Shown: piece after piece, positions 4,790-47,384 of the stretch
How positions within the stretch are numbered: the first letter of the stretch is position 1
Layout: each line of letters opens with the position of its first letter
Assembly (NCBI GenBank): GCA_903925075.1
Contig: CAIYDQ010000323.1
Location: 25,263-89,262 of the forward strand
Source: an uncultured Geobacter sp.
Lineage (GTDB): Bacteria; Desulfobacterota; Desulfuromonadia; Geobacterales; Geobacteraceae
Reading direction: 5' to 3'
Length of the DNA: 64,000 nucleotides
Position numbers and translations under genes: made by a program
Notes under the pieces: model-generated
Database searches by the model: none
What the model saw: the letters and a program-made list of their open reading frames with translations, nothing else
What the model was told of the DNA's origin: nothing

Positions 4790-4802
4790 CCCTCCAAATT
4801 TA

Positions 4803-4960
4803 GGGCAAAGGGCAAAGGGCAAAGGGCAAAGGGCAAAGGGCAAGGGGCAAGGGGCTAAGGGCTAAGGGCTACGACTAAAGGCTTATGCCTGTTAACCTTT
4901 AGCCTTTAGCCTTTCGCCCTTAGCCGCCTTTAGGCCTTTCGCCCTTAGCCGCCTTTAAGC
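4803..4960. repeat. Intergenic heptanucleotide array (GGGCAAA/GGGCTAA, about 10 units) followed by inverted TTTAGCC/CCCTTAG units
   Basis: Direct reading: gggcaaa x5, gggcaag x2, gggctaa x2, gggctac at 4803-4872; then cctttagcctttagcctttcgcccttagcc and a duplicated cctttcgcccttagccgccttta at about 4895-4960. Confidence 0.9.
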
Positions 4961-4962
4961 CT

Positions 4963-6945
4963 TTACAACTTAAACCTTCCCACCATTTTCCTCAGGTCGG
5001 TGGCCAGCGAGGAGAGCTGCGAGGCCGCCGTGGCGGTCTCGTGCGCTCCCCGCGCGGTGTCGGAGACCACCTCGGTGATCTGATGGATGTTGTCGGTGAT
5101 CTCGCCGGTGACCGCGGTCTGCTCCTCCGAGGTGGTGGCGATCTGGTGCACCTGCATGGTCACCTCGTTGATGGCGTCCAGTATGTTCTGCAGGGCGTCG
5201 CCGGACTTGCGCGAGCTTTCCATCCCCTTTTCGACCTCCTGCACGCCGTTCTCCATGCTGCGCACCGCGCCCGCCGTCTCCTCCTGAATGGCCTTGATCA
5301 TGCCGCCGATTTCCTTGGTGGCGCGCGTGGTGCGCTCGGCCAGTGCGCGCACCTCGTCGGCGACCACGGCGAAACCACGCCCCTGTTCGCCGGCCCGCGC
5401 CGCCTCGATGGCCGCGTTCAGCGCCAGCAGGTTGGTCTGGTCGGCGATGTCCTCGATGGTGCCGACGATGGCGCCGATCTGGTCCGAGCGCGCCCCCAGG
5501 CTCTCCACGGTGCCTGCCGACTCCTGCACCCTCTGGGCGATGTTCTGCATCCCCTGGAGCGTCTGCTGGACGACCTGCGCCCCGCCCCGGGCGGTGTCGC
5601 TGGCCCGGTTGGAGCTGTCCGAGGCGAGCGTGCAGTTGTGGGAAATATCGTTGGAGGTGGCCGACATCTCCTCGCTGGCCGTGGCCACGGTCACCGACTG
5701 GCAAGCGACCTCTTCGGCGGCGGTGGCTATCTGCTCGGCGGTGCTGTGCAACTGGCTGGCCGCGGACGCCACCTGGGTGGTGTTGTCGGCCACCTGGGAG
5801 ATGATGGCGTGGATGTTGTCGACGAAGCGGTTGAACCAGTGCGACAGCTCCCCCAGTTCGTCCTTGCGGTCCGCCTGCAGGCGTCGGGTCAGGTCCCCCT
5901 CCCCCTCGGCGATGTCCTTGAGCATGGCGAGCATGCCGGCCAGCGGCCGGGTGATGTTCAGCATGACGACGACGCCCAGCAACAAGGCGATGCCGCCCAG
6001 CGCCAGCGAAAGGGTGACGCTGAAAACCAGGGCGCGCTTCGCCCCGGAGGCAAGCTCCACCGCCGCCTGCTCGATGTTCTTGGCCAGCAGGTCCTCGACC
6101 TCCTTTAGCGCATCGATCTTCTCGGTTATGGTGGCGAACCACAGCTCCGGGGCAACGCCGAAACCGCCGCTCATCCCTTTGGCCAAAGCCGCCCCCCGCA
6201 GTTCGGTCACCTTTTTGAATACCGGCCTTTGCTCCTTTTCCGCCAGCACGGCCCGGTCCGCAGCCGAGGCGTAGTCCGAAAACACGTCCAGGTAGCTGTC
6301 CTGGGCGGAGAGGATCCTGAAGGTCCTCTGGTAGGTTTCCTCGTCAAACTTGTCCGCGGCGAACACCGCATTCAGGGTGGCCCGCTCCTTGCCGGTTTCC
6401 TCCTTGGCCTCCACGAAGGCGTGGTAGGCCGTCGCCTGCCGAGTGATGGCGGCGTTGCTGCTGTTGCTGGCCACCGCGGCGACCACGTCCACATAGGTGG
6501 CGATCAGGCCGGTGTAGAAGACGAAGGAGTCCTTGCCGGGAATCTTCAGCCCGTCGACGTTGCCGCGGGTCTCCTGCAATCTGAGCCGGGTGGCGTCGGC
6601 CGAGTCCAGCGACTTTTTCACCGCGGCCAGGGCCGGGGCATTGGCGCCTTGGCACTCCTGCAGCTGCTTGACCCGGGCATCGACCAGCTCCCGCTGCCGG
6701 GCGAGCTCCCCTTTGAACTTCTCCCCCTTGCTGTTGATGTAGCCCGAGGAGAAGCCGCGCTCCTTTTGTATTTCGTGAATAACGGCTCCGGCCCGCACGG
6801 AAAGCCCGATAAGCGTACGGGTCTGGCTGGCGTCTTCCAGCACCTGGTACTTCTCCACGATGTCCCGCGCGGAAAAAAGCAGCAACCCCAGAAGCGGAGC
6901 CAACATCATCAGCAGCAGCTTGAGACTGATCCTCATGTTCTTCAC
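4963..6945 (-). CDS. Methyl-accepting chemotaxis protein with nitrate/nitrite-sensor (NIT)-like periplasmic domain
   Basis: 660 aa; N-terminal [14 protein letters not shown] (NIT-like), HAMP, hairpin [38 protein letters not shown]. Confidence 0.88.
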
Positions 6946-13205: not shown

Positions 13206-13745
13206 GTGGAGTTGACGGTTACGTTTCGGAGGCGGGGGAAACTTTCCGGAGAGGTCCGCAATCTTCCCGGCGGTCTGCGGATGTTCTGGAGGGTTCCGGA
13301 TTTTCCCGGATGCCCGCGGGATTTTTCCCGGGCGCGCGCAATCTTTCCGGCAGGCTCAGGGAGCTTTTCGGAGACGCCCGGAACCTTCCGGAGGCCCCGC
13401 GGAACTTTCAGAGAGACTCGGAATTTTCCCAAGGCTCTCGGGAACCTTACGGAATACCGCCATCCTTCCGGAGGCCCGGGAACTTTTCCGAGACATGCTT
13501 CAATCTTTCCGGAGGCTCGGGAAACTTTCCCAAGGCATCCGCAATCTTTCCGACGCTCGCCCAACTTTTGGGAGGGCGCCGGAATGCTTCAGGGAGGGGC
13601 CGCCGGAATTTTTGGAGAGGCGCGCAACTTAACAGGAGGCCGCAAATTTTTTGGGAGGCGTTCGCAAACTCCCGAAGGCTCCGAGAAATTTTCGGGCCTT
13701 CCGATCGCTTCTCCGGATCGCGGAGGGTTCCGGAAGGAGCGGAGC
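13206..13745. repeat. Degenerate ~21-bp tandem repeat array, about 25 units (A)
   Basis: Manual segmentation, consensus approx AWCTTTCCGGAGGCYCGGGA (19-24 bp units). Several frames on both strands stay open through it and encode degenerate heptapeptides (e.g. ..SFSETPGTFRRPRGTFRETRNFPKALGNL..). Confidence 0.88.
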
Positions 13746-13846: not shown

Positions 13847-14509
13847 TCAGATCACGGTCAGGGCGAGGATGGCGGACCAGGCGCCGTAGCCGGCATGGCC
13901 GTAGCATCTAAACTTGAAATGGTACGCTTTCGGGGCTTCCAGCCCGTGCGCCTCGAACGGCTTGCAACCTGGAGACTGCGCAATCAGGGTCCAGTTCTCC
14001 TCGATCGAAGGATCTCCCGCGGTCGCCCATAGTTGATACACGGCGGCGCCGTCCACCTTGTTGCAACTGGCTAAGACGGACCCGCTGGCACTCCCGTGCC
14101 CGACCTTCGGGTTGTGGGGCGCATCCACCAGAGGATGGATATGTGTTCTCGGGGTTGGCTTCTTCGGTTCCAGTCCCAGGTTGGCGATCAGATTGGGGTT
14201 GTTCTCCCGATAGGCCCTGGCCACGGCCCAGTTGACGGTAATAGTGGCATTCGCCTCCAAACGCGGGCGGTTCAGGTCGCGTTCGGTCTTCTTGCCGCGA
14301 TGCCCGGTCGCCGCCTGATTGGTGAGATCGACGTGGTACGCGGCATCCGTCATGAGTTCCTTGGCATCGGGCACCGTCGGCGGGAACGGTGCCTGATGGT
14401 CGGGGTGAACGGCGAGGAATTCGGCGAAGTGGTGGACCCAGTTCGCTAACTCCATGTGGTCCAAGTCCCGCAGAGTGACCTGAACCGGCACAAGAAATGG
14501 ATTTGGCAT
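13847..14509 (-). CDS. Small FN3-like protein A: helical N-terminal region + C-terminal fibronectin-III-like domain
   Basis: Start MPNPFLVPVQVTLRDLDHMELANWV (ATG 14509, GGGGGT upstream). C-terminus SGSVLASCNKVDGAAVYQLWATAGDPSIEENWTLIAQSPGCKPFEAHGLEAPKAYHFKFRCYGHAGYGAWS reads as FN3-like. Aligns by eye with the protein at 45317..45970. Confidence 0.75.
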   Translation of the reverse strand: MPNPFLVPVQVTLRDLDHMELANWVHHFAEFLAVHPDHQAPFPPTVPDAKELMTDAAYHVDLTNQAATGHRGKKTERDLNRPRLEANATITVNWAVARAYRENNPNLIANLGLEPKKPTPRTHIHPLVDAPHNPKVGHGSASGSVLASCNKVDGAAVYQLWATAGDPSIEENWTLIAQSPGCKPFEAHGLEAPKAYHFKFRCYGHAGYGAWSAILALTVI

Positions 14510-45316: not shown

Positions 45317-45970
45317 TCACAAGACGATGATGCCGATGTAGTGGGAATAGGGACCGGGGGCTCCGGTTCCGTGGCATCTTACCCTGAAATAGACCCTTTT
45401 CGCCGGCTCCAGTCCTCTGAGCGGGACGCGACAATAGGAGTACTGCCCCACGGTGCTCCAAGCTTCCTCCACATTCGGATCGCTTTGGCAAATCTCCAAT
45501 TCGTATGTTCCGGCGCCGTCTACTTTCCTGTAGGTGACAATTACCTCCCCGGAGTCGGAACCGTGCTTTGCGGAGATCGTAGTCGAGACGACCGAGTCTT
45601 TCGGTTTTCTGCTCCTTACCGGTTTCTCCTTCAGTTTCAAGCCGAGGTTTTCCAGCAAGCTGGGGTCGTTTTCGCTGTTTGCCCTCATGACCACGTATTG
45701 GGCCATCAACGTCACCGAATCGCAGATGGCCTCGCGCTTGCTGTCGCGGTCTTTCAGGTTTTTACGGCCTCCGTCGGCGTCAACCACGACGGCAGCTTCG
45801 TGATAGGCGGCCAATTGCTCCTTCAGCTTTAACGGGTGCGTTATATAGTCGGGCCAGTTGTTTTTAAAGAAGGAATGGACGAGCAGGCGGTTGGCGAAGT
45901 CTCCAACCACTAATACGAACTCCGAATGACTGAGGTCCGACAAGTTGGTGCCAAGCTGATTTACGGACAT
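45317..45970 (-). CDS. Small FN3-like protein B (paralog of 13847..14509)
   Basis: MSVNQLGTNLSDLSHSEFVLVVGDFANRLLVHS...SLLENLGLKLKEK...SGEVIVTYRKVDGAGTYELEICQSDPNVEEAWSTVGQYSYCRVPLRGLEPAKRVYFRVRCHGTGAPGPYSHY; AGGAGG 8 nt upstream of ATG 45970. Confidence 0.78.
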   Translation of the reverse strand: MSVNQLGTNLSDLSHSEFVLVVGDFANRLLVHSFFKNNWPDYITHPLKLKEQLAAYHEAAVVVDADGGRKNLKDRDSKREAICDSVTLMAQYVVMRANSENDPSLLENLGLKLKEKPVRSRKPKDSVVSTTISAKHGSDSGEVIVTYRKVDGAGTYELEICQSDPNVEEAWSTVGQYSYCRVPLRGLEPAKRVYFRVRCHGTGAPGPYSHYIGIIVL

Positions 45971-46133
45971 TTTCATCACCTCCTCTTTTGTAGGAATACG
46001 CCGAAAGGCGATCTTGATTGGTTCGAGCAAATGTTATCGACTCATTTCCGATAGTCAAAGAAAAATTTAATTTTTCTAATTTTTTTCTTTTTTATCCATC
46101 GACGTCCCGGATTCGTTGTCTTGCCCCTACCGA

Positions 46134-46700
46134 CCTCATGCTCCTGCGAGTCATCGTCACGTTACCTTTTCTGACCCCATGCACTTGGTCGTCCTGGCTA
46201 CGTTATTTGCCATGTCCGGATTATTTGGTTGCCATCGCTACCTTATCCCTCGCGACGCGATACATTCGGTGGATATCGCTACGCTAACTCGCGCGGCCGG
46301 ATGCATTGGGTCGTCACCGCCAGGTTACTTCTGGCGACCGGAAGCATCTGGTCGTCGCCGCTACGTTACTCCTGGCGGCAGGAAGCATATGGTCGTCGCC
46401 GCTACGTTACCTCTGGCGACCGAAAGCATATGGTCGTCGCCGCTACGTTACCCCTGGCGACCGAAAGCATATGGTCGTCGCCGCTACGTTACCCCAGGCG
46501 ACCGGAGGCACCTGGTCGAAGCCGCTACGCTACCCCCGGCGACCGGAGGCACCTGGTCGAAGCCGCTACGTTACCCCAGGCGACCGGAGGCACCTGGTCG
46601 TCTCCGCTGCGCTACCCCTGGCGACCGGAGGCATTTGGTCGTCACCGCTACGCTATCTCCGGCGGCCGGATTCACTTGGTCGTCGTTGCTACGCCATCTC
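46134..46700. repeat. 41-bp tandem repeat array, about 14 units (B)
   Basis: Unit AGCATATGGTCGTCGCCGCTACGTTACCCCTGGCGACCGAA; successive CAT positions 46386, 46427, 46468 confirm a 41-bp period; central copies near-identical, flanking copies diverged; each unit has GTCGCC...GGCGAC inverted arms. Confidence 0.95.
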
Positions 46701-46711
46701 GCCATCTTTCA

Positions 46712-46752
46712 TAAAAAAAGCCCCTGATCCGTTCTCTGGATCGGGGGCTTTC
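46712..46752 (-). terminator. Terminator hairpin, family copy 3
   Basis: AAAAAAAGCCCCTGATCC-gttctct-GGATCGGGGGCTTT. Confidence 0.85.
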
Positions 46753-46799: not shown

Positions 46800-47384
46800 C
46801 TAGCGTTTTCCGGGCGCTTCCGCGTCGGCTCCGCCGCACTGGGCCATGAGTCCGGCGATCTCTTCTTCGCTCAGCTCTTCCTCGATGCGGATGGCGCCCC
46901 TTTCGTCCCTGCTGAGTTCGCAGATGCCGGGATGCACGCTCTCCAGACGTCTCAGCTCCCGGGACTGGCGCCGCACCGTCCGCAACAACCGCCGGTTTTC
47001 GTGTTCCAGGTCGTATTTCTCCAGGGCGCTCAAAATGGCAAGCTTCAGTTCGGTGTCGTTCCAGGGCTTGGCGAAGAACCGGTAGATCTCGCCGTGGTTC
47101 ACCGCGCGCATGGCCGACTGCATGCTGGCGTTTCCGGTAAGCATGATCCTGACCGTCTCAGGATAGAGCTTCTTCACCCGGGCGAGAAACTCCGCGCCGT
47201 CCATCCCCGGCATCTTCTCGTCGGAGATCACCACCTTGAAAGTCTGCCCCGCCATCAGTAGCAGCGCCTCTTCCGCGCCGCCGGCGCCAGTTATCTTAAA
47301 CGGCTCTTCGTCCAGCCCCCGCATCAAAGCCAATACCACCAGCGGCTCGTCGTCTACTATCAGTATCGTATTGTCCAAAGGCAT
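46800..47384 (-). CDS. REC-domain response regulator with C-terminal helical tail
   Basis: MPLDNTILIVDDEPLVVLALMRGL...VVISDEKMPGMDGAEFL...RFFAKPWNDTEL. Confidence 0.85.
   Translation of the reverse strand: MPLDNTILIVDDEPLVVLALMRGLDEEPFKITGAGGAEEALLLMAGQTFKVVISDEKMPGMDGAEFLARVKKLYPETVRIMLTGNASMQSAMRAVNHGEIYRFFAKPWNDTELKLAILSALEKYDLEHENRRLLRTVRRQSRELRRLESVHPGICELSRDERGAIRIEEELSEEEIAGLMAQCGGADAEAPGKR

Follow-up and report, generated by a model that had tools for sequence, protein, structure and literature searches.

The window analysed here is a 64,000-nt stretch of the genome of an uncultured Geobacter sp. Between a response-regulator gene and P0001, a gene encoding a protein with a fibronectin type III (FnIII)-like domain, it carries an intergenic tandem array of 41-bp units, and this array is one of about 15–25 gene-array pairs in the bacterium and its relatives. 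The features that matter to the argument, including a second gene and array elsewhere in the window, are as follows.

45317–45970, minus strand: P0001, the cognate gene by position, about 217 aa (translation, alignment, structure model, FnIII matches in the PDB)
45971–46129, minus strand: AT-rich spacer between array and gene (sequence)
46130–46702, no strand assigned: tandem array of 14 × 41 bp (one unit of 40 bp) with a uniform centre and decayed edges (TRF and in-register reading)
46712–46749, minus strand: terminator-like hairpin and T run of the response-regulator gene (read directly on the minus strand)
46800–47382, minus strand: response-regulator gene, a neighbour outside the putative module (ORF list; no neighbour family recurs elsewhere)
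13850–14473, minus strand: second family gene in the window (profile search)
13218–13737, no strand assigned: second array, downstream of the gene at 13850–14473 (TRF, 2.3 copies of 41 bp; motif fit)

The array starts about 10 bases past the terminator-like hairpin of the response regulator and is located 160 bp upstream of the start of P0001, the less common side for this family. The spacer contains one weak sigma-70-like promoter match (46058–46031), which is at about chance level.

Read in register, the array comprises 14 units, in agreement with the roughly 14 copies counted in an earlier, sequence-only reading, and TRF returns a period of 41 with 9.8 copies and 86% matches over 46293–46693. 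One unit measures 40 bp because the two left-most units sit one base off register. Adjacent-unit identity is 0.54–0.61 at the left edge, 0.32 across the 1-bp shift and 0.76 at the right edge, and peaks at 0.98 in the centre (46416/46457), a profile that bears out the conserved centre and decayed edges described earlier and supports the proposed expansion with homogenisation of the centre and decay of the ends. Units between 46211 and 46662 match the inner consensus with z = 4.3 to 9.6 against a background of random 41-mers, and the DNA flanking the array on both sides has no match to it. We found no DNA similar to the array at a meaningful E-value, either elsewhere in the same genome or in 47 further genomes from the family. 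Within the unit, neither site symmetry or dyads beyond those in shuffles nor a significant 20.5-bp substructure was detected, and the 20.5-bp Fourier peak of the array is only suggestive as a sign of two phases. The earlier reading had also given every unit GTCGCC...GGCGAC arms enclosing a common loop; exact GTCGCC-N14-GGCGAC occurs in 3 units, 6 have it with at most one mismatch, and a single unit has the quoted loop without change. Because the array is strongly homogenised and unique, a core within its 41-bp unit is not resolvable, and any reading of this array would itself rest on the arrays of its relatives.

P0001 has a four-helix N-terminal domain and an FnIII-like C-terminal domain, with no obvious signal peptide. 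A structure model (pLDDT 91.5, pTM 0.61) gives the same helical N-domain and FnIII-like C-domain, with the relative placement of the two unsure at this pTM. The matches of the C-terminal part in a PDB fold search are FnIII domains, Pfam fn3 is recognised in 13 of 34 P0001 relatives, and in its C-terminal part the protein thus shares the fold of fibronectin type III proteins. The family also includes short proteins consisting of the N-domain only. This domain, modelled as a helix bundle (pLDDT 91.8), found nothing convincing in Pfam in scans of 34 and of 68 members and no significant match, including to any known DNA-binding fold, in the PDB or among viral models; the diversity-generating retroelement (DGR) accessory protein Avd was considered and rejected at E about 3–5. 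The N-domain is acidic on average, with basic charge confined to the linker, where an AT-hook was rejected (K/R.GRP in 2 of 117 proteins only). PADLOC, NCBIfam and PHROGs offered no convincing family for these proteins.

Many paralogues of P0001 occur in the same genome. An N-domain profile finds 9–21 family copies per genome in all other genomes examined of Geomonas/Citrifermentans, the genus of the window, and the related genus g5 has 24; two further genera have few copies, and the family is absent from the remaining genera of our Geobacteraceae sample. It is present in another class, with 12–18 copies in each of three Methylococcaceae/Crenothrix genomes. No member was found among 198 genomes drawn from the phylum of the window (Desulfobacterota), nor in plasmids, phages or viral contigs queried with one member or a small alignment, and the class of G244 yielded, besides G244 itself, one fragment and the FnIII parts of large proteins only.

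Tandem arrays adjoin most of these paralogues. As judged by TRF and lag scans, their sequences differ and their periods belong to one class, in steps of 20–22 bp (20, 21, 40–42, 61–63, 81–85, 102 and 120–126 bp). The occurrence of similar arrays beside homologs had been named beforehand as a deciding test, and it proved strongly true; the pairing with a large gene family is invisible from the window sequence alone. A TRF array of this class lies within 1.5 kb of 78 of 117 distinct family genes (56 downstream, 22 upstream), several of the array-less cases being cut by contig ends. Among the 94 genes with both flanks present, 73% have an array, compared with 10% of places of gene size picked at random in a closed relative; most of this background consists of repeats within coding sequence and of a dispersed repeat of the GGGAGAGG type. 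The apparent background arrays with such periods in G028, namely a repeat coding for a coiled coil and dispersed repeats of the GGGAGAGG type, were rejected as being of a different class. In two closed genomes, 29 of 33 family genes have a TRF array, two of them standing 1.3–1.6 kb off the gene, and short N-domain-only proteins are among the 29; no second neighbour gene family recurs at these loci. The pairing also holds in Methylococcaceae, and some family genes, L063 for example, have no detectable array.

Fourier analysis of 54 well-defined arrays gives a fundamental of 20.59 ± 0.48 bp, or two turns of B-DNA, a spread narrowed by the pre-filtering of TRF periods to 19.4–22.2 per phase; unfiltered scans give the same period class. 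The side on which the array stands is inherited by lineage, with 8 changes on the tree, and a terminator-like hairpin separates stop codon and array at 20 of 55 downstream loci, compared with 3% of shuffled gaps.

Several further observations concern these surroundings. In Methylococcaceae metagenomes (L113, L116, L110, L122, L123 and L109), the contig stops at most about 50 bp from many family genes, usually on their 5' side, which would be expected if an unassembled array stood there. ORFs resembling REP-associated tyrosine (Y1) transposases lie near arrays at L048:6502–7506 and L058:238–606, without recurrence elsewhere. In G028 (L144, L148, L153 and L083), a repeat family with GGGAGAGGG/CCCTCTCCC palindromes is scattered through intergenic DNA; some of its copies stand in tandem at 44, 83, 105 or 125 bp, and it is a different class, with a sequence common to its copies.

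The window itself holds a second module of the same kind, formed by the gene at 13850–14473 and the two-strand array at 13218–13737, in which about 24 diverged sites lie on both strands at a main spacing of about 20 bp (a motif fit gives 27 sites, compared with 1.2 in shuffles). For L041, the nearest paralogue of P0001 (56% identical), the contig reaches no more than about 190 bp beyond the gene on its upstream side. Elsewhere in the window's own genome, an FnIII-end-only gene remnant of about 86 aa (L222:3856–4113, minus strand) is overlapped by a 15-copy 41-bp array (L222:4040–4666), a module that appears to be decaying or rearranged. Short intergenic repeats at 4802–4972 of the window, with AGGGCAA about 10 times followed by a 25-bp GCCTTTAGCCTTTCGCCCTTA unit, fall outside the 20–22n class and adjoin no family gene.

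To define candidate sites, we turned to a less homogenised lineage (L018/L021/L027/L037/L048/L058/L065/L066). A motif fit with no symmetry constraint found 108 cores near GGAATAGTGCAATTYC, compared with 1.45 in shuffles. The core is about 16 bp long and quasi-palindromic and occurs on both strands; spacings are 20 bp in 58 cases, 21 bp in 27 and 41 bp in 9, with variable linkers of 4–5 bp. The orientation order of 17 sites is identical in three species, one read in reverse, and in the three-species alignment identity is 80% in cores, 53% in linkers and 58% in flanks (p = 6e-7), a footprint-like pattern, although the test is mildly circular in that sites were placed on one species and the motif was fitted to the whole lineage. 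In the closed genomes G028 and G021, exact cores occur only in the array beside the gene, and a reversed control pattern gave 0. Mixed-strand sites recur in other lineages as TGTAACSGTTACA (L191/L199) and TGAATCACGATTTA (L196/L207), the latter found by motif fit where TRF had shown nothing nearby; in some lineages (F and G), motif fits were at or near the shuffled level. Unit palindromy is modest and absent in some arrays, and was rejected as a general property. Sites on both strands at a fixed phase suit a symmetric protein on double-stranded DNA, rather than an RNA or a reading frame.

Array sequences are private to lineages. Between loci whose proteins are less than 50% identical, array similarity (6-mer cosine) is about 0, rising to 0.48–0.58 at 70% identity or more; this tracking of the protein is compatible with coevolution as well as with simple descent of the locus from a common ancestor. 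We also identified orphan arrays of 17–23 AATAGTG-type cores between glgA and hppA in G016, G011 and G012 (L220:4504–4965, L227:4999–5339 and L228:4997–5422), one syntenic place in three species, where the roughly 5 kb to each side contain no family gene. Their core is that of the L018...L066 lineage arrays. That an array is kept apart from its gene suggests recognition in trans. G012 retains the orphan array, yet no clear orthologue of the cognate protein is seen there; a paralogue that has diverged may take its place.

The reading that we favour, with somewhat better than even confidence, is that array and adjoining gene form one module, the array supplying helically phased double-stranded DNA sites for the cognate family protein. 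The sites are presumed to be bound by protein, and we infer that the family protein is the binder from the privacy of the sites, their co-inheritance with the gene and the lack of any other partner. The likely DNA-reading part is the N-domain, since short proteins without FnIII also have arrays. Its acidic average charge, with only the linker basic, and its lack of a match to a known DNA-binding fold speak against this role.

The binding-type evidence concerns the DNA and not the identity of the protein, so another factor, such as a nucleoid or transcription protein, might occupy the sites, with the gene linked only as one needing a regulatory or insulating flank. The orphan arrays fit such an arrangement, among them that of G012, where no cognate orthologue is clear. 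We nevertheless consider it unlikely: a single common factor would not produce lineage-private units that follow the protein, and the side of the array varies, being downstream in the majority of lineages and upstream elsewhere.

Selfish or neutral minisatellites, arising by slippage or unequal crossover and with a period that reflects the expansion mechanism, would account for the turnover shape of the window array, with its uniform centre and decayed edges, and no orthologous array is known for it. We consider this explanation distinctly improbable, given that cores are conserved above linkers and flanks, that orientation order is the same in three species and that a near-constant period is found among unrelated sequences in two distant groups; simple head-to-tail duplication alone could not produce mixed strands.

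The array might also be transcribed and work as RNA, either as the repeated hairpins that the sequence-only reading had suggested or as guide RNAs bound by a protein. The model for the latter is TIGR-Tas, in which a Nop-domain protein accompanies arrays of two alternating 8–12-nt repeats with variable 9-nt spacers that yield 36-nt guide RNAs (PMC12045711). These arrays likewise lie up- or downstream of one gene, have locus-specific repeats and run from few to tens of units, with 5–15 units and unit lengths near 36–42 described (PMC12045711). Pfam finds no significant Nop-domain match in scans of 34 and of 68 members, and the PDB fold search gives FnIII. Edge and loop repeats that alternate around 9-nt spacers are lacking; the arrays have a single core of about 16 bp with 4–5-bp linkers on both strands, the window units being conserved over their whole length. 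We therefore rejected identity with TIGR-Tas on the Nop domain and the spacers. Nor does the window array fold as RNA better than shuffles (z of -1.3 and +0.3 for the two strands; -0.7 to +0.4 for single and double units), and at 20 related loci Rfam has no family match, riboswitches included; a structured RNA was rejected on these grounds. With cores on both strands of a related lineage at unchanged spacing, and terminators often standing between gene and array, an RNA function lacks support and is very improbable. CRISPR, which the earlier reading had already discounted, is rejected, as the units run head to tail without unique spacers and no neighbour gene (cas) recurs. The plus-strand ORFs of 203, 161 and 165 aa are indeed present, and all three frames are open, but a repeat protein has a negligible likelihood, because one stop-free 41-bp unit opens every frame, the starts are TTG and the periods of related arrays (20, 41, 82 and 85 bp) are not multiples of 3; the three open frames are no sign of a protein.

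Under the reading of the array as DNA sites for the cognate family protein, it would be a row of predicted sites, one per two helix turns (about 20.5 bp), so that the 41-bp unit would hold two phases. Bound copies would stack on one face of the helix into a regular nucleoprotein rod, displaying FnIII domains for a partner or for each other. With its own site sequence for each paralogue, a chromosome would carry about 15–25 separately addressed rods. Tandem duplication and conversion would rebuild and homogenise the arrays, with selection retaining the core sequence and the helical spacing. We give a little under an even chance to the full form of this proposal, a chromosomal addressing system in which 15–25 paralogues each recognise a private two-turn array and build a locus-specific rod, in two distant groups of bacteria and possibly with use in trans. 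As to purpose, autoregulation seems less fitting than a role in local chromosome architecture, in anchoring or in insulation; this is a tentative and rather unlikely suggestion, preferred because most arrays lie downstream, often past a terminator.

In the plasmid centromere systems ParR-parC and TubR-tubC, a gene for a small DNA-binding protein stands beside a tandem array of private sites at fixed helical spacing, whose sequence varies among members and gives specificity (on ParR specificity, see PMC9426499). The same arrangement, a gene adjoining a tandem array of private, helically phased (here predicted) sites, is found in our loci, and by analogy ParR/parC is the nearest counterpart in the presumed manner of working. 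The differences are that 15–25 pairs share one chromosome here, that no motor (ParM/TubZ) or ParA gene recurs in the two closed genomes, that the period is two turns rather than about one, and that the helix-bundle/FnIII protein is an unrelated one.

Repeats of related appearance have been described before. Multicopy sequences of Geobacter bemidjiensis, which is closely related, include intergenic direct repeats of 6–42 nt, tied to no gene family, and the same genome has an FnIII triplet under a GEMM riboswitch (PMC2996986). Those direct repeats may include the present array class; in contrast to the GEMM-regulated FnIII genes, the 20 loci searched here have no riboswitch. Borg elements are rich in tandem repeats whose units are unrelated to one another, among them an intergenic one of 20–21 nt (PMC9879509). 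In number and in the unrelatedness of their units they resemble our arrays, but Borg repeats are perfect, about half of them fall within ORFs with lengths divisible by 3, and no single gene family accompanies them. A search of the open-licence literature, which is weak evidence of absence, found no published description of the gene-array pairing.

The general principle of a protein with a cognate site array is already known, whereas for the protein family, its multiplicity, the period of two turns and the privacy of the sites we found no described match. If family proteins bind their own arrays, one chromosome would come equipped with many orthogonal pairs of protein and DNA address, and dozens of natural pairs could show how private DNA specificity arises by duplication. 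A function could then be assigned to proteins whose best present annotation is 'fibronectin type III domain-containing', and a class of intergenic repeats at which short-read assemblies of Geomonas/Geobacter and methanotrophs break would be explained.
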